Shown here: piece after piece, positions 25,146 to 58,927 of the stretch
How the letters are laid out: the number at the start of each line of letters is the position of its first letter
Numbering within the stretch: position 1 is the first letter of the stretch
NCBI GenBank assembly: GCA_026390115.1
Contig: JAPLGO010000021.1
Location: forward strand, 1 to 64,000
Source: Campylobacterales bacterium
GTDB taxonomy: Bacteria; Campylobacterota; Campylobacteria; Campylobacterales; Sulfurimonadaceae
Length of the DNA stretch: 64,000 bases
Direction: 5' to 3'
Notes under the pieces: generated by a model
The model's input: only the letters and a program-made list of their open reading frames with translations
Told to the model about the DNA's origin: nothing
Databases searched by the model: none
Program-made: the position numbers and the translations under genes

Positions 25146-25196
25146 ATGACAAAAATTAAAATTCAGTACAAGGAGGCACTAAATGCCAATTCTTAA
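25146..25196 (+). other. 16-codon leader ORF overlapping the FMN-binding gene
   Basis: ATG 25146, preceded by a strong AAAAGGAG (25133-25140), encodes MTKIKIQYKEALNANS and stops at TAA 25194-25196. That is 14 nt beyond the start (25183) of the next gene. The ribosome site of that next gene (AAGGAGG) lies inside it. A homologous 16-codon ORF with the same 14-nt overlap occurs at 57525-57575. It is probably a translated leader or coupling element. Confidence 0.55.
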
Positions 25197-25719
25197 AAAA
25201 TCAATTATATACATTATTCTTGTTTTTACACTTTCTTTGAGTGCAGAAGTCTTGACCTCCCCAATAGATGCCATGAAATATGCTTATGGACAAAACAGCG
25301 AAATAAGTAAAAATGATATTTTACTCTCCTCAGAACAAGAGAGTAAAATAAGTCAAGAAGCAAAAGTGGCACTAGATACTAAAATATTTAGAGTCTTTAA
25401 AGCCGTAGCAGATAATAAAATTTTTGGTTATGGCATTTTAATTAACAAACAAGTTCGTTCAAAAAATGCTGTTGTTCTTTACATGATTACTAAAGAGTCT
25501 CTATTAAAAGGCATAGAAATCATAGCTTTTAATGAACCTGTTGAATATTTGCCATCTAAAGAGTGGAGTTCACAGTTTCAGAATATAGAGACGACTCAAA
25601 TGTTAAGAATTTCTAAAGAGATTCCAACCATAACAGGTGCGACGCTCTCGGCTAAAAGTGTCGTAGATGGCTCACGAATAGCCTTTGCTTTTTACAATGA
25701 AATTTTAAAAGAAAAATAA
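25183..25719 (+). CDS. Periplasmic FMN-binding domain protein, flavinylation target
   Basis: A 178-aa exported protein with an N-terminal signal peptide (about 1-21) and an FMN_bind domain like those of RnfG, NqrC and NosR. The flavinylation motif T-I-T-G-A-T-L-S is at about 149-156; ApbE would attach FMN to T154. It is a one-electron carrier facing the periplasm. It lies between a porin and two membrane proteins (1-nt overlap with the next), with apbE 1.6 kb away on the other strand. Function in respiratory or iron reduction is inferred. Confidence 0.82.
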   Translation: MPILKKSIIYIILVFTLSLSAEVLTSPIDAMKYAYGQNSEISKNDILLSSEQESKISQEAKVALDTKIFRVFKAVADNKIFGYGILINKQVRSKNAVVLYMITKESLLKGIEIIAFNEPVEYLPSKEWSSQFQNIETTQMLRISKEIPTITGATLSAKSVVDGSRIAFAFYNEILKEK

Positions 25720-29472: not shown

Positions 29473-29549
<77 letters not shown>

Positions 29550-29680: not shown

Positions 29681-29740
<60 letters not shown>

Positions 29741-29757
<17 letters not shown>

Positions 29758-29806
29758 ATTCAATAAAAACCCCTATAATACAGACTTTTCAAAGAATCAA
29801 ATTACA
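29741..29806 (+). repeat. attL-like direct repeat
   Basis: Starts with TCCTGTTTCCGCAACCAA, the tRNA-fMet 3' end, and ends AAGAATCAAATTACA. It matches 62 of 66 positions at 31319-31384. Confidence 0.8.
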
Positions 29807-31318: not shown

Positions 31319-31384
31319 TCCTGTTTCCGCAACCAATCCAATAGAAACTCTTATAATACAGACTTTTCAAAGAATCAAATTACA
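31319..31384 (+). repeat. attR-like direct repeat
   Basis: A copy of the tRNA-fMet 3' end and following sequence (62 of 66 identical to 29741-29806). It marks the right edge of the integrase element. Confidence 0.8.
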
Positions 31385-35145: not shown

Positions 35146-35197
35146 TTCATACCCTTTATTCTTCTATGTTGAAACTATATCCAAATAAAATCCATAA

Positions 35198-35237
35198 ATC
35201 AACATATCTTGATATTATAATTTAATTATGCTACAAT
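35198..35237 (+). promoter_or_regulatory. ars2 operator and promoter
   Basis: ATCAA-CATATC-TTGAT at 35198-35213 (ArsR-family operator), -35 TTGATA (35209-35214), 17-bp spacer, -10 TACAAT (35232-35237). Same design as ars1, but without the extended palindrome. Confidence 0.78.
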
Positions 35238-35256
35238 TTTTCAAACGGAGGTAAAA

Positions 35257-35541
35257 ATGGAAGTTTTTTTAAAAAGTATTTCAGCACTCAATGATGAGAC
35301 AAGAGTTTTAATCTTACGATTTATCGATGTTCATGGCGAGTGTTGCGTATGCGACTTGCAAGTATCATTAGAGATGATTCAATCGCGTCTTTCGCGTCAT
35401 CTGAAAATATTAAAAGATGCCGGTTTTTTACGCGTTGAGCGCAAAGGAACATGGGCATATTACTCAATCAGAACGCAAACACAGGAGAATGTAAAATATG
35501 AGTCAAAAAAAGCAGGTACTTATTTTATGTACAGGAAATAG
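35257..35541 (+). pseudogene. arsR: ArsR-family repressor, C-terminus deleted
   Basis: The first 72 residues equal those of the copy at 246 except one (S27 to G). After R-T the sequence jumps to the ribosome site of arsC (CACAGGAGAATG): about 85 bp are missing compared with copy 1. The frame then runs out of register into arsC and ends at 35541. The metal-sensing C-C-V-C-D-L and the recognition helix remain; the C-terminal dimerisation part is replaced by T-Q-E-N-V-K-Y-E-S-K. Activity is uncertain. Confidence 0.8.
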
Positions 35542-35911
35542 TTGTCGTTCCATCATGGCGGAAGCTTTGATAAATGCTAAATTAGGTGATTGCGTTGAAG
35601 CTCAAAGTTCTGGTGTCAAAGCCAGTGGAGCTGTGAATCCCCATGCCAAGGCTCTTTTAGAAAAGAAGGGCTATTGGCGGGAAAGTTACCATTCTAAAGT
35701 GATAGAGAGTGTTTTGGATACTGCCTTTGATTTAATTATCACAGTTTGCGACCACGCAAAAGAGACATGTCCGATGTTTCCAAAGGCAATAAAAACCATC
35801 CATTTAGGATTTTACGACCCTAGCGGTAAAGAAGTAGAAGAGTATGAAAGAACATTGCAACTCATAGAAGAAACCCTTCTCCCGATTGTTAAATCCGAGT
35901 TGTGTGATTGA
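35498..35911 (+). CDS. arsC: Arsenate reductase, thioredoxin-coupled type, copy 2
   Basis: A 137-aa paralogue of the protein at 562 with the same C11 P-loop (C-T-G-N-S-C-R-S) and the C84/C91 relay. It differs at about one residue in nine, among them F-D-D-P to F-Y-D-P near 105; the conserved D-P pair is kept. Its start lies inside the broken arsR frame, and its stop is followed at once by arsP. It is probably active and linked to thioredoxin-like genes downstream. Confidence 0.93.
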   Translation: MSQKKQVLILCTGNSCRSIMAEALINAKLGDCVEAQSSGVKASGAVNPHAKALLEKKGYWRESYHSKVIESVLDTAFDLIITVCDHAKETCPMFPKAIKTIHLGFYDPSGKEVEEYERTLQLIEETLLPIVKSELCD

Positions 35912-35913
35912 TC

Positions 35914-36864
35914 ATGTGGCACGACGCAGTATCTAGCTTAGTATATGGCACCTTTGGTTTTCCAAAAGGAGAGCGGTTTACGGAAGCATTGCATTTTTTC
36001 ATTTATGATACAGGTAAGATATTCTTTCTTCTACTTGTTATTATTTTTGCAGTAACACTTTTGCGCTCCTATTTCAAACTAGAAAAAGTACGATATTTTT
36101 TATCAGGCAAAAAAGAGATAACGGGCAATGTCCTAGCCTCACTGCTGGGCATTGTTACTCCATTTTGTTCATGCTCGGCGATACCTTTATTTCTTGGTTT
36201 TTTGCAGGCTCGTATACCGCTAGGGGTAACACTAAGCTTTCTGATTAGTGCGCCTATGAATAATGAAATTGCAATCGCAATGCTGTTTGGACTCTTTGGC
36301 TGGAAAATAGCCGGTTTATATATTGCTTTTGGTTTGTTTGTATCCATCACAGCAGGATATATTTTAGGGAAGATGAATCTGGAAAAATACATATTGCTAA
36401 AAGTTGAACCCATTGACGTGGAGGGAACTTTTGAGGACGAGAAAATACCGCTTTCAATGCGTTTAAGAGAAAGTTGGGAATACACAAGAGATTTGATACA
36501 AAAAATATGGATTTATGTAATCATAGGTATCGCACTTGGCGGTTTTATACACGGTTTTGTTCCCACGGAATTTATCGCTACCTACGCAGGTGGTAGAGAT
36601 TGGTATTCTGTCCCCTTAGCCGTTCTCATTGGTATGCCAATGTACTCAAACGCTGCAGGTGTTATTCCACTCATCGAAGTTTTAACCGCAAAAGGGATGG
36701 CAATGGGTACGGCATTGGCACTTATGATGAGTATCATTGCCATAAGTCCACCGGAAGCTATAATCCTTAAACGAGTACTTCATGTCCGCTTGATAGCAAT
36801 CTATTTTAGTATTGTAGCTATGGGCATCGTTGGTGTTGGATATATATTCAACTGGATATTGTAA
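35914..36864 (+). CDS. arsP: ArsP-like permease (DUF318)
   Basis: A 316-aa membrane protein with about eight helices and the family's cysteine motif T-P-F-C-S-C-S-A-I-P-L-F in one helix (about 84-95). ArsP exports trivalent methylated or aromatic arsenicals. ATG 35914 is preferred; a TTG at 35908 is in frame. It sits between arsC and the Cys-rich 81-aa gene, and is absent from the first ars module. Confidence 0.85.
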   Translation: MWHDAVSSLVYGTFGFPKGERFTEALHFFIYDTGKIFFLLLVIIFAVTLLRSYFKLEKVRYFLSGKKEITGNVLASLLGIVTPFCSCSAIPLFLGFLQARIPLGVTLSFLISAPMNNEIAIAMLFGLFGWKIAGLYIAFGLFVSITAGYILGKMNLEKYILLKVEPIDVEGTFEDEKIPLSMRLRESWEYTRDLIQKIWIYVIIGIALGGFIHGFVPTEFIATYAGGRDWYSVPLAVLIGMPMYSNAAGVIPLIEVLTAKGMAMGTALALMMSIIAISPPEAIILKRVLHVRLIAIYFSIVAMGIVGVGYIFNWIL

Positions 36865-36909
36865 AATATCTAAAATAACGCTCATTTTTTAATTTATAAG
36901 GAAAAAATT

Positions 36910-37155
36910 ATGTTTAAAGTAACAAATACAGAAAAAGGTGTGAAAGCCTTTATAACAGGATTTAAAACTGAGGAGCTGTCTGCAAAGATTGAGGCATGTA
37001 AAAATGGTTCTTGTAGTTGTGATTGCGACCCTCAAATCATGCAAAAGATTGAAAATATAGAAGTTTCAAGCGAAAATGATGGAACAAGTATCACGATTAC
37101 GGGCGATGTAGATGCTCAAGTGCTAGAGCCATTAATGAAGGAGTGCTTACTATGA
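36910..37155 (+). CDS. Small Cys-rich protein of the ars operon, copy 2
   Basis: An 81-aa near-twin of the protein at 976 (about seven differences, mostly conservative), with all five cysteines (C30, C35, C37, C39, C79) kept. It follows arsP by 45 bp with AAGGA upstream. It overlaps the truncated thioredoxin-like gene by 4 nt (ATGA). Preservation of the cysteines while arsR decayed suggests selection on this gene. Unknown function; As(III) binding is a guess. Confidence 0.78.
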   Translation: MFKVTNTEKGVKAFITGFKTEELSAKIEACKNGSCSCDCDPQIMQKIENIEVSSENDGTSITITGDVDAQVLEPLMKECLL

Positions 37156-37265
37156 AAATCGAAATTTTAGGAACAGGATGCAGTAAGTGCAAAACCCTTG
37201 AAGCAGTAACAAAACAAGCGGTAGCTCAAAGTGGCATCTTTGCTCAAAAGGAGAAAAATTTATAA
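37152..37265 (+). pseudogene. Truncated thioredoxin-like (redox-active disulfide) protein
   Basis: 37 codons: the first 32 or so match the protein at 38445 (M-K-I-E-I-L-G-T-G-C-S-K-C-K-T-L-E), including the C-x-x-C pair. It then diverges (A-Q-K-E-K-N-L) and stops where the second half of the fold should follow. It looks like a partial duplicate cut by deletion. The ATGA overlap with the preceding gene and the adjacent ATG of the next (TAAATG) suggest it still acts as a translational link. Confidence 0.7.
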
Positions 37266-38448: not shown

Positions 38449-38681
38449 AAATAGAAGTGTTAGGAACCGGCTGTTCTAAATGTAAAGCCCTCGAAGAAGC
38501 AACAAAACAAGCAGTGGCTAAAAGTGGCAAATTTGCACAAATCGAAAAGGTGGAAGATATCCAAAAAATCATGGAGTACGGCGTAATGAACACTCCAGCA
38601 CTCGTCATAGATGGGAAGGTTCTTAGCACGGGGAAAGTTCTGAGTGTTGATGCTATTGTAGAGTTCATCAAGGTTCAATAA
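38445..38681 (+). CDS. Thioredoxin-fold redox-active disulfide protein
   Basis: A 78-aa member of the small thioredoxin/glutaredoxin-like family (MTH895/TM0996 type). C-S-K-C is at about 10-13, and the cis-proline loop M-N-T-P-A-L-V-I-D-G-K is near 49-59. It may pass electrons to ArsC or handle persulfides from the rhodanese. It overlaps the rhodanese gene by 4 nt. A truncated relative lies at 37152. Confidence 0.87.
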   Translation: MKIEVLGTGCSKCKALEEATKQAVAKSGKFAQIEKVEDIQKIMEYGVMNTPALVIDGKVLSTGKVLSVDAIVEFIKVQ

Positions 38682-55767: not shown

Positions 55768-57525
55768 ATGAGAAGTCATTATTGTACAGATTTAAATGAA
55801 ACAAATGTAGGGCAGGATGTTGTTCTAATGGGTTGGGCGAACAATCATCGTGACCATGGTGGGATTGTTTTTATAGATTTACGAGACAAAACAGGTCTGA
55901 TTCAACTTGTTTGTGACCCAGCGGACAGTGAACAAGCACATAAACTTGCAGATAGTGTAAGAGATGAATTTGTTCTGATCGCTAAGGGGAAAGTGCGTTT
56001 TCGTGGTGAAGGTTTGGTGAATCCACGCCTCAAAACCGGTGCAATTGAAATCGTAGTACACGAACTTATTATTGAAAACAAAGCCGCTCCTCTGCCATTT
56101 GTGATTGGTGACAAAAATGTAGGTGAAGAGACAAGACTCAGATACCGCTATTTAGAGCTTCGTGACCCTGACATGTATGAGACTTTCCGTCTTCGTTCAA
56201 AAGCGGCGATTGCTGCGAGAAATATCCTTGATGCAAACGGCTTTTTAGAAGTTGAAACTCCAATTCTCACAAAATCTACTCCTGAGGGTGCAAGAGATTA
56301 TTTAGTGCCATCTCGTGTGCACAGTGGAGAGTTTTACGCACTTCCTCAATCTCCGCAACTTTTCAAACAACTTCTCATGGTTGGTGGATTTGATCGCTAC
56401 TTTCAGATAGCAAAATGTTTCAGAGATGAAGATTTAAGAGCGGACCGCCAGCCAGAATTTACTCAAATAGATGTTGAGATGAGTTTTTGTAACCAAGAAG
56501 ATGTTATCAAAGTTGCAGAAGATTTACTTGTTGCAATGTTCTCGGCATGTGGACATGAAATCAAACCTCCATTTAACCGTATCACTTACAACCATGCGAT
56601 GGAATTTTATGGTTGTGATAAACCAGATTTACGCTACGACCTGAAAATGGTAGATGTTATTGATATATTTGAAAGATGTACGAATGAAATCTTTACAAAC
56701 ATTGCTAAACATCCACATACGAACCGCATTAAAGCTCTCAAAGTTCCTGGTGCGGATTTAGTATTTTCAAAAAGAGAGATGCAAAGTTTTGAAGAGTTTG
56801 TACGCAAATTTGGTGCACATGGTCTTGGATATTTTCAACTTAAAGAGGACGGATTAAAAGGTCCACTTATAAAATTTTTCTCTGAAGAAGATATTCAACT
56901 CATCATTGAGAGAACTGACCTTAAAGTAGGCGATGTTGTTTTCTTTGGTGCTGGAGATAAGAAAACTGTCCTTGACTACATGGGAAGATTTAGAATTTTT
57001 ATCGCTGAACACGAAAAAATGAACCTCATTGACAAAGATAGATTTGAGTTCGTATGGGTTGTTGATTTCCCTATGTTTGAAGTGGAAGATGGAAGAGTAA
57101 AAGCTCTGCACCATCCATTTACAATGCCTAAAGATACAGATAAAGAGAATGTGGAAGAAATAGAATCTATCGCGTACGACATCGTATTAAACGGCACTGA
57201 GCTTGGCGGTGGAAGTATTCGTATTCACAAATCAGAAGTTCAAGAAGAGGTTTTCAAACTTTTAGGCATCGAAGAAGAAGAAGCAAAAGAGAAGTTCGGT
57301 TTCTTACTTGACGCACTCAAATTTGGCGCACCTCCACATGGCGGTTTTGCTATAGGATTTGACAGACTTATGATGCTAATTTCTAAAAAATCAAGCATTC
57401 GTGATGTTATCGCATTCCCTAAAACACAAAAGGCTTCTTGTATCCTTACAAAAGCACCAAGTCCTGTGGATGCAACACAACTGAGAGATTTACATATCAG
57501 ATTACGCGAACAGCCTAAAGCATAA
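55768..57525 (+). CDS. aspS: Aspartyl-tRNA synthetase
   Basis: A class IIb synthetase, 585 aa. It has an N-terminal OB anticodon domain (about 1-110), motif 2 [16 protein letters not shown] near 213-228, the GAD insertion (about 280-410), and motif 3 G-F-A-I-G-F-D-R-L near 528-536. In organisms without asparaginyl-tRNA synthetase it is non-discriminating. Its TAA overlaps the ATG of a 16-codon leader ORF (TAATG). Confidence 0.96.
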
Positions 57526-57575
57526 TGATAAGAATTAAAATTCAATACAGCAAGGTAGTTAATGCCGAGTCGTAA
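57525..57575 (+). other. 16-codon leader ORF overlapping the adenylate kinase-like gene
   Basis: ATG 57525 overlaps the aspS stop (TAATG). It encodes [16 protein letters not shown] and ends at TAA 57573-57575, 14 nt past the start of the next gene (57562). It is homologous to the leader at 25146 in protein (M-x-x-I-K-I-Q-Y-x-x-x-x-N-A-x-S), DNA and geometry. Confidence 0.55.
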
Positions 57576-58140
57576 AAAACTATTTTTAATTATCGGAGCG
57601 CCCGGCTCAGGTAAGACTACAGATGCAGAGTTGATTGCACAACAAAACGATCTAATAACACACTACTCTACAGGTGACATGCTTAGAGCAGAAGTTGCAA
57701 CTCAAAGTAAACTTGGACTTGAAATAGACCAATACATATCTAAAGGTTTAATAGTACCTATCGATGTGGCTATCAAAACTATCACAAACGCTATTAAAAA
57801 TGCTCCTACTGACATAATTATCATTGATGGATATCCAAGAAGCATGGAGCAGTTAAATACTTTAGATGAATATCTGAACAGTGACACATTTTTAGAACTT
57901 TGCAGTGTCATAGAAGTACATGTAAATGAAGAAACTGCCCGTGACAGAGTCCTAGGTCGTAACCGTGGTGCTGATGATAATAACGAAGTGTTTGATAACC
58001 GTATGAAAGTTTATATGGAGCCTTTAGCAGATATTCAAGCTTTTTACAGTGCTAAAAATCTTTTACATGTAATTTCTGGAGAAAGCACTATCGAAGAGAT
58101 AGTTCACGAGATGGGAAGTTTTATAAACTCTAAAATATAA
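57562..58140 (+). CDS. adk: Adenylate kinase, short Campylobacterota type
   Basis: Interconverts ATP, ADP and AMP. The 192-aa protein has P-loop G-A-P-G-S-G-K-T-T (about 12-20), AMP-site Y-S-T-G-D-M-L-R-A (about 36-44), D-G-Y-P-R-S (about 87-92), and a short LID with G-R-N-R-G-A-D-D-N (about 129-137) instead of the long zinc-type LID. This is the usual Adk in Campylobacter and Helicobacter. It is convergent with a second, different adk. Confidence 0.85.
   Translation: MPSRKKLFLIIGAPGSGKTTDAELIAQQNDLITHYSTGDMLRAEVATQSKLGLEIDQYISKGLIVPIDVAIKTITNAIKNAPTDIIIIDGYPRSMEQLNTLDEYLNSDTFLELCSVIEVHVNEETARDRVLGRNRGADDNNEVFDNRMKVYMEPLADIQAFYSAKNLLHVISGESTIEEIVHEMGSFINSKI

Positions 58141-58192: not shown

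Positions 58193-58927
<735 letters not shown>

Follow-up and report, generated by a model that had tools for sequence, protein, structure and literature searches.

A dispersed, probably mobile Campylobacterota repeat with apparent start-codon capture behind two look-alike leader reading frames

Two short open reading frames (ORFs) in a Campylobacterales genome (Sulfurimonadaceae) raise the question of why the leaders of two unrelated genes should look alike. Both lie in positions 1 to 64,000 of contig JAPLGO010000021.1, the whole stretch of DNA analysed here and hereafter called the window. Leader ORF 1 (25146-25196, + strand; MTKIKIQYKEALNANS) and leader ORF 2 (57525-57575, + strand) each read in the sequence as 16 codons and a stop, and each overlaps the start of the next gene (25183 and 57562, respectively) by 14 nt. 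It is probable that these leaders are copies of one dispersed, and very probably mobile, repeat of the Campylobacterota that captures start codons, by settling just behind the start codon of a gene and bringing in another. The pair is confirmed as real, and it is part of a larger phenomenon than was first described.

A first-pass annotation, made from the letters of the window, had reported the equal length of the two ORFs, the 14-nt overlap, agreement over about three quarters of 55 nt and a ribosome site for the next gene inside each ORF. All of this is borne out by the sequence: without gaps, 43 of 55 nt are identical (the best of 12 other offsets tried gives 22 of 55), and the ribosome site is GGAGG in the first ORF and a weaker AAGG in the second. 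Leader 1 has its own AAAAGGAG upstream and leader 2 starts in a TAATG overlap with the aspS stop, again as described. The likeness stops with the 55 nt, and the genes that follow are unrelated. In an all-pairs scan of 55-mers on the + strand of the window, 21 merged pairs shared at least 40 of 55 positions: a duplicated gene cluster accounts for 14, a duplicated tRNA-Met gene for one and a single diagonal in two neighbouring ORFs of equal length for three, while the other three are short and isolated, the leader pair among them. Three first-order Markov nulls of the window contained no such pair. The short motif that had been proposed as a search tool is uninformative by itself. When up to 3 mismatches are allowed, the 15-nt motif is not enriched in the window, where it occurs 20 times and 18.4 matches are expected; when up to 2 are allowed, it occurs 51 times in the window's own genome against 46 for a reversed control, the only exact matches being the two leaders. 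The case rests on the whole element.

Comparison with related genomes is revealing of how the leaders arose. An orthologue of adk, the gene behind leader 2, is empty in L053 and reads TAATG-AAAAAACTATTT, compared with TAATG-(46 nt)-AAAAAACTATTT in the window. The filled purA of L351 reads AATAGGAAATATATA-ATG-(46 nt)-AAAGCAGATTTAAT, and the empty purA of L368 reads AATAGGAAATAATAAT-ATG-AAAGCAGATTTAAT. Similarly, the FMN-binding-like protein gene behind leader 1 has an empty orthologue, L032 in genome G056, which reads AAAAGAGAAATT-ATG-AAAAAG; the window reads AAAAGGAGAAATT-ATG-(46 nt)-AAAAAA, and the upstream sequences are closely similar. In these comparisons the insertion is observed directly, together with its length, position and phase. 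The pairs of empty and filled sites indicate that the old start codon and its upstream region have become the start of the leader, whose frame is the old gene frame running into the 46-nt insert. The purA of L369 begins ATG-AGC-CGT-AAA-GCA, which may be the scar of a deleted insert.

The insert recurs in many genomes and before many genes. A blastn search of 99 genomes with 81 bases round leader 1 gave matches down to E 2e-11 within the genus, heading different genes. A covariance model, R1, built from 17 copies (alignment A2), gave 214 matches at E<=1, spread over 83 of the 135 Sulfurimonas genomes with a maximum of 13 per genome; 56 matches among those listed lie below 1e-10. At E<=1e-4 matches were present in 16 of the 298 genomes sampled from the order (5 of 81 genera) and in 10 of the 249 sampled from the phylum (4 of 55 genera), two samples that overlap. 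An exact 20-base pattern was found in at least 120 stretches of genome contigs; the matches listed include Sulfurimonas, Sulfurovum and other Campylobacterota metagenome-assembled genomes (MAGs) or assemblies, as well as one Sulfurospirillum, one Sulfuricurvum and one record labelled Caldiserica. Because copies are present in single-contig genomes (e.g. G011, G032, G160, G161), assembly error is not their cause. The window's own genome contains, besides the two leaders, two more R1 matches: C8:218356 (E 0.002), which has diverged, and C38:10902 (E 0.017), which is weak and decayed. Further copies in this and related genomes, which the first-pass annotation had proposed to seek, do exist. The two window copies comprise the following features.

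25146..25148, +, presumed old start codon of the gene for the FMN-binding-like protein, from which leader 1 now starts (from orthologue L032, which is without the insert)
25149..25194, +, element copy 1, 46 nt (R1 71.9 bits, E 3.1e-11 in its own genome; boundaries set by analogy with the adk and purA empty sites)
25153..25164, +, hairpin 1 of copy 1, AAAT-TAAA-ATTC (alignment A2, pair counts, single-copy fold); its outermost pair, A-C, is non-standard, and it is absent from the predicted minimum free energy fold of copy 1
25172..25176, +, ribosome site GGAGG of copy 1, carried by the element (sequence)
25175..25187, +, hairpin 2 of copy 1, GGCA-CTAAA-TGCC, containing the new start codon (fold, pair counts)
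25183..25719, +, FMN-binding-like protein with a hydrophobic N-terminus, new start MPILKK (Pfam FMN_bind, a weak call at E 0.00098 and 20.2 bits against a cut-off of 22)
25194..25196, +, stop of leader 1, TAA, made of the element's last T and the gene's AA (sequence)
57525..57527, +, presumed old adk start codon, overlapping the aspS stop (TAATG), now the start of leader 2 (from the empty orthologue L053)
57528..57573, +, element copy 2, 46 nt (R1 71.7 bits, E 3.4e-11; the 46-nt difference from L053)
57532..57543, +, hairpin 1 of copy 2, GAAT-TAAA-ATTC (fold, pair counts)
57552..57555, +, AAGG of copy 2, weak ribosome site of the new start (sequence)
57554..57566, +, hairpin 2 of copy 2, GGTA-GTTAA-TGCC with one U-G pair, containing the new start codon (fold, pair counts)
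57562..58140, +, adenylate kinase, new N-terminus MPSRKK, in empty relatives MKK (Pfam ADK, adk orthologues)
57573..57575, +, stop of leader 2, TAA (sequence)

The standard form of the element is 46 nt long, ATAAG-hairpin 1-AATGCAGGGA-hairpin 2-GAGTCGT, and its layout is GGAGG or a relative, 6 nt, ATG, 9 nt and then the gene. The 9 nt after the new ATG mostly encode PSR, PNR, PNL, PSL or PTR, in frame with the gene. Hairpin 1 is of the type GAAC-TAAA-GTTC, also GAAT/ATTC and GAGT/ACTC, and hairpin 2 is of the type GGCA-CTAAA-TGCC, also GGTA/TGCC. The hairpins covary: 17 aligned rows hold 9 double-change cells against 3.1 in shuffles, and 150 distinct rows hold 106 double changes against a shuffled maximum of 58. 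No known Rfam family lies over the element; 12 element loci gave no match at E<=1, and in 20 other loci the only matches, 7 tRNAs and a group II intron, all fall in L198 and lie outside the element.

A census of 170 distinct copies with an internal ATG, drawn from all the loci collected, placed 145 at the start of an ORF and 25 elsewhere; to count, the ORF had to reach 80 aa, or 40 aa if open. These 145 gene-start copies fall in 71 protein families (blastp). The identified host genes include serA, hemE, purA, pyrC, coaD, asd, lpxA, waaF, hemH, trpA, fabD, rpiB, purN, bioB, miaA, nfo, pdxA, carA, mnmA and surE (names based on Pfam domains), as well as a phage portal gene. That a portable cassette and not chance lies behind the two leaders, as the first-pass annotation had proposed, is thus upheld by the 71 families headed and by the empty sites in relatives. 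Most copies (89 of 145) lie right after the start codon, 29 lie one codon later and 8 lie at 3-5 codons, the remaining 19 being long forms, composites or copies with no in-frame start; the old start was taken as the nearest in-frame ATG, GTG or TTG, so a few assignments may be wrong. A Shine-Dalgarno-like core precedes the new ATG in 141 of the 145, a count that is partly built in because the copies were picked by likeness to a GAGG-bearing consensus. In 140 of 145 the element's T and a following AA, AG or GA form a stop in the old frame at the junction, whereas a fraction of 0.525 of the second codons in 40 window ORFs would do so (p 1e-32, which ignores relatedness). The set found by the exact pattern comprises 122 copies, of which 89 stand before an open ORF or one of 60 aa or more and 33 do not; the junction stop is present in 81 of the former 89 and 23 of the latter 33.

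The first residues of the host proteins are also informative. Among the 20 families whose N-terminal segment is hydrophobic, 17 have Leu as residue 4 of the new N-terminus, compared with 6 of the 51 others (Fisher p 8e-9; 9e-9 and 5e-8 at two other thresholds), a bias expected if the element's codons are translated as the N-terminus of the gene. The window copies conform, with MPILKK before the FMN-binding-like protein with its hydrophobic N-terminus and MPSRKK before adenylate kinase.

Several variants depart from the standard length. An 87-nt form has an extra hairpin within the loop of hairpin 1, and in a 75-nt form hairpin 2 is longer and includes a second Shine-Dalgarno sequence. L126, L127 and L139 carry a variant of 75-76 nt whose hairpin 2 contains ..CCCTCAACCAAGGAGGACATGATG.. 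or a similar sequence and thereby gains a second ribosome site. A 45-nt form stands in frame after the start codon and adds MTRTKVQCNKPLNGLF-like residues to the N-termini of putative exported proteins. The copy at C8:218356 in the window's own genome is of this form. Inserts of 48 nt lie in frame in recG, with SSGDKHLKCSASEALNAESYKKPHF in L303 against SSGDKKPHF in L345, and likewise in L339 compared with L345; between L321 and L322 the in-frame difference is 45 nt. The recG match in the genome of L303 also has one TAG elsewhere. In-frame copies in recG and in a phage-like gene (L252, with no empty site shown) encode SASEALNAESYK and ANASEALNAESYK. Tandem copies and intergenic copies also occur, some of them behind what we take to be tpx-like genes and before what are presumably sucC-like genes.

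Composite arrangements were also observed. L193, L211, L217, L241 and L276 combine the 45-nt in-frame form with a piece of the start-capture form behind it, which looks like the outcome of one element inserting into or next to another. Larger composite repeats (L226, L237, L190, L240, L198, L264, L176), found largely in Sulfurovum MAGs, contain the core element and then a hairpin with CGTC or CGTT. Among 12 composite loci chosen by eye, 7 have a 9-10 bp hairpin followed by CGTC (4) or CGTT (3) at a fixed place just behind the core, and shuffles gave a tagged hairpin in 2-12 of 100. Outside the composites such a hairpin accompanies 1 of 25 non-gene-start copies (0.7 expected) and 7 of 145 gene-start copies, and is therefore not general; outer inverted repeats were likewise seen in some composite loci only. 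In L175, L177, L188, L199, L244, L256 and L263, which where titled are Helicobacteraceae MAGs, the core lies behind a conserved stretch ending ..TCTCTGACGCGACAGAGA, and the 6 of these loci that were scanned (all but L256) gave no Rfam match.

The mechanism proposed from these sequences is as follows. The element has settled in the orientation of the gene, as a rule directly behind the start codon and in fewer cases one or a few codons further on. Because 46 is 1 modulo 3, the old start codon now opens a leader (16 codons for the standard form) whose stop, T|AA, falls 14 nt inside the gene. With the element come a Shine-Dalgarno sequence, an ATG in hairpin 2 and 9 nt in frame with the gene, and such an insert-supplied start would restore translation, so that the gene seems to survive the insertion. 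The new ATG is presumably used for initiation, and the geometry fits a leader and gene that would be translationally coupled. The copies were presumably moved by a transposase acting in trans, for which an IS200-like enzyme acting on hairpin DNA would be the natural candidate. A copy of the element also precedes the lambda-type phage portal gene of a viral contig (IMG/VR; L291, 908-927), a possible vehicle; the 54-nt copy of L022, used as query, had no match in phage and plasmid collections.

The copies at start regions may reflect aimed insertion or may merely be survivors of selection, and a start-biased census fits either. It is a tentative, rather doubtful suggestion that the element is aimed at translation starts, by machinery that recognises start regions, start-region RNA or single-stranded DNA, and that length-tuned subfamilies have evolved. 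Those subfamilies would be, no less tentatively, the 46-nt form for start capture, the 45-nt form for N-terminal tags, the 48-nt form within ORFs and a Leu variant for exported proteins.

Other explanations of the shared leader must be set beside start-codon capture. The element might be a domesticated, portable regulatory leader, either a riboregulator or a binding site for a protein such as CsrA, with coupling to an upstream ORF (uORF) as in E. coli iraD. Two covarying hairpins, TAAA loops and a start codon within hairpin 2 would all suit such a role, and the consensus AAUACAGGGAGG over the Shine-Dalgarno sequence resembles what we take to be the CsrA motif (RUACARGGA-like). Coupling of a uORF via CsrA is known (PMC5574718). 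However, the host genes are a mixture of unrelated housekeeping and exported proteins, orthologues in related genomes are without the element, the GGA core is often lost (AGTGAGG, AGCAAGG) and the same core occurs inside recG and between genes, so that a regulatory leader appears unlikely. An arrest or leader peptide of 16 residues would account for the equal length and frame in the commonest gene-start class, the 89 copies right after the start codon, yet a new ATG that stays in phase with the gene already dictates this frame. Moreover, third codon positions are no more variable than the others (entropies of 0.57, 0.68 and 0.64 bits at positions 1, 2 and 3), and the synonymous share, 0.147, is below the 0.243 expected. 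A conserved leader peptide is thus unsupported by codon statistics, and the leader peptide is not conserved as a peptide, which makes this explanation highly improbable. The view of the first-pass annotation that a translated leader is what travels holds only in part: the element is first of all an insertion whose downstream half forms the new start of the gene, and the leader is what is read from the old start codon into the insert.

Movement of regulatory DNA between genes and strains has been put forward, and homologous recombination of whole start regions, with no insertion, might spread a leader in this way. This is improbable given that both flanks of the filled sites resemble the resident empty orthologue (purA in L351 and L368, adk in the window and L053) and that the unrelated genes of the window are alike over 55 nt only. 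Translational bypassing is a known phenomenon, of which byp elements are an example, and hairpins in a short insert within coding DNA might recall it; the ribosome would hop over the insert from the old start and land at the new ATG. Since a Shine-Dalgarno sequence at the right distance makes plain initiation enough, bypassing is not needed, and the copies in recG keep the frame open and leave nothing to bypass, so that such hopping is extremely improbable. Finally, the leaders are AT-rich, start regions share a Shine-Dalgarno sequence and an ATG, and the short motif with mismatches is no commoner than expected, all of which might suggest chance or convergent likeness. Its probability is very small, and it was rejected, as the absence of such a pair from the Markov nulls and the recurrence across genomes (the 214 matches in 83 genomes at E<=1) weigh against it.

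A number of observations weigh against start-codon capture by a mobile element, or against parts of it. Copy numbers are low, and 52 of 135 genus genomes have no R1 match at E<=1. The census is biased towards gene starts because R1 and the DNA pattern were built from gene-start copies and an internal ATG was required. Away from gene starts, 18 of 25 copies also have a stop-forming right flank, so that selection and a target preference for AA/AG are equally possible explanations. For 6 of the 25, an ORF begins 10-35 nt further on and does not take the copy's ATG as its start. The families behind the Leu bias are not fully independent, and one element subfamily may explain part of it. The structural evidence is uneven as well: further pair types are not raised (8 vs 8.2 in the 17 rows), 3 of 11 helix pairs hold in only 71-76% of the 150 rows, and helix pairs make up only 3 of the 15 top coupled column pairs in those rows, indicating that subfamily structure is also present. 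Single-sequence folding is unexceptional (z -0.9 to -1.3). No mobilising enzyme was identified. Y1 transposase genes occur in 72 of 135 genomes, and G130, with 10 copies, is not among these; G025, with 6 element copies, likewise has no Y1 match, and no R1 match lies within 23 loci around Y1 genes. A Y1 or REP-associated tyrosine transposase (RAYT) as mobiliser was accordingly rejected, there being neither adjacency in those loci nor strict co-occurrence in the 135 genomes. Of the two marks of a miniature inverted-repeat transposable element (MITE), long terminal inverted repeats and a target-site duplication, the first has a counterpart only in the outer repeats of some composite loci; no clear target duplication was seen, and none is evident at adk or purA.

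The history of the insertions also permits more than one reading. Filled genes lie scattered on the adk and purA trees, each of which has 32 rows: the 4 filled adk genes require 4 label changes (3.9 in shuffles) and the 7 filled purA genes require 6 (6.5 in shuffles). The rows were the best-matching loci, supplemented by hand with 2 filled adk and 3 filled purA genes. Well-supported branches force at least 2 changes for adk and at least 4 for purA, many branches are weak, and the counts do not separate gain from loss. Repeated gain is the simpler reading because the filled genes are many and different, any one of them is filled in few genomes, and clean empty sites are found close by.

The window contains other repeats and a further adenylate kinase gene. 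This second, different gene (58193-58915, - strand) lies tail to tail with that at 57562-58140 (+), and of the two only it matches the ADK lid domain. A gene cluster is duplicated at 173-1221 and 35184-37155, with 55-mers 82-100% alike and three extended stretches 87-97% alike; its ORFs are presumably regulator-like and phosphatase/arsenate-reductase-like. Two tRNA-Met genes (29473-29549 and 29681-29757), with a tRNA-Gln between them, have their first 62 bases identical. Two further short isolated repeat pairs are 29741-29795 with 31319-31373 (51 of 55) and 37163-37242 with 38456-38535 (62 of 80 alike; best 55-mer 37188/38481, 45 of 55).

Insertions at the starts of adk, purA and hemE should be costly, and the element carries its own way round this cost. 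If start-codon capture is true, it would offer a route for mobile DNA to live in key coding genes and a source of new N-termini and short uORFs. It would also provide natural start-swap experiments, in which the same gene is found with and without an insert at the same position. Annotation is affected, in that start sites and N-termini in Sulfurimonas and Sulfurovum differ from those of orthologues. No description of this element or of its mode of start-codon capture was recognised in the literature searched, a coverage that left subscription papers largely outside.

Known repeats and leaders share some of these properties. Rickettsia palindromic elements (RPEs) are small palindromic repeats that sit within unrelated genes without breaking the frame and encode a conserved peptide (PMC10969869, PMC3733652). 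The present element is similar in being dispersed in 71 families, present or absent between relatives and in frame inside ORFs such as recG. However, RPEs are Rickettsia families of about 150 nt, whereas the element belongs to another phylum and has a core of 46-48 nt with two 4-bp hairpins. Most sampled copies, moreover, follow a start codon and supply a new start; the element is set apart from RPEs on these grounds, without direct sequence comparison. Repetitive extragenic palindromes (REPs) have been noted at ORF N-termini, where translation may begin downstream, Sulfurovum NBC37-1 is reported with both GTAG and CGTC tag types, and the CGTC repeats have stems of 8-9 bp (PMC3733652). The element resembles REPs and REPINs as a short dispersed stem-loop with clusters and intragenic copies, but its core ends ..GAGTCGT with no GTAG/CGTC end tag, its stems are of 4 bp and it was not found beside Y1 genes in the 23 loci around them. 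The tagged hairpins of the composites are a possible link to the CGTC repeats of Sulfurovum.

Enterobacterial RU/ERIC sequences are also small mobile repeats fused in frame to host genes (PMC2759123), although start-codon capture is not described for them in the available part of that paper. In iraD a short ORF overlaps the next start and the Shine-Dalgarno sequence lies in a hairpin under CsrA control (PMC5574718); that is a single regulated leader, in contrast to a dispersed insert. Putative mobile promoters are similar in that one upstream sequence is common to unrelated genes. Mobile promoters carry transcription signals, whereas the moving part of the element is a ribosome site and a start codon, inside the gene. 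Thus, we read the element as a new family of small, very probably mobile palindromic repeats that works in the manner of RPEs and REPs.
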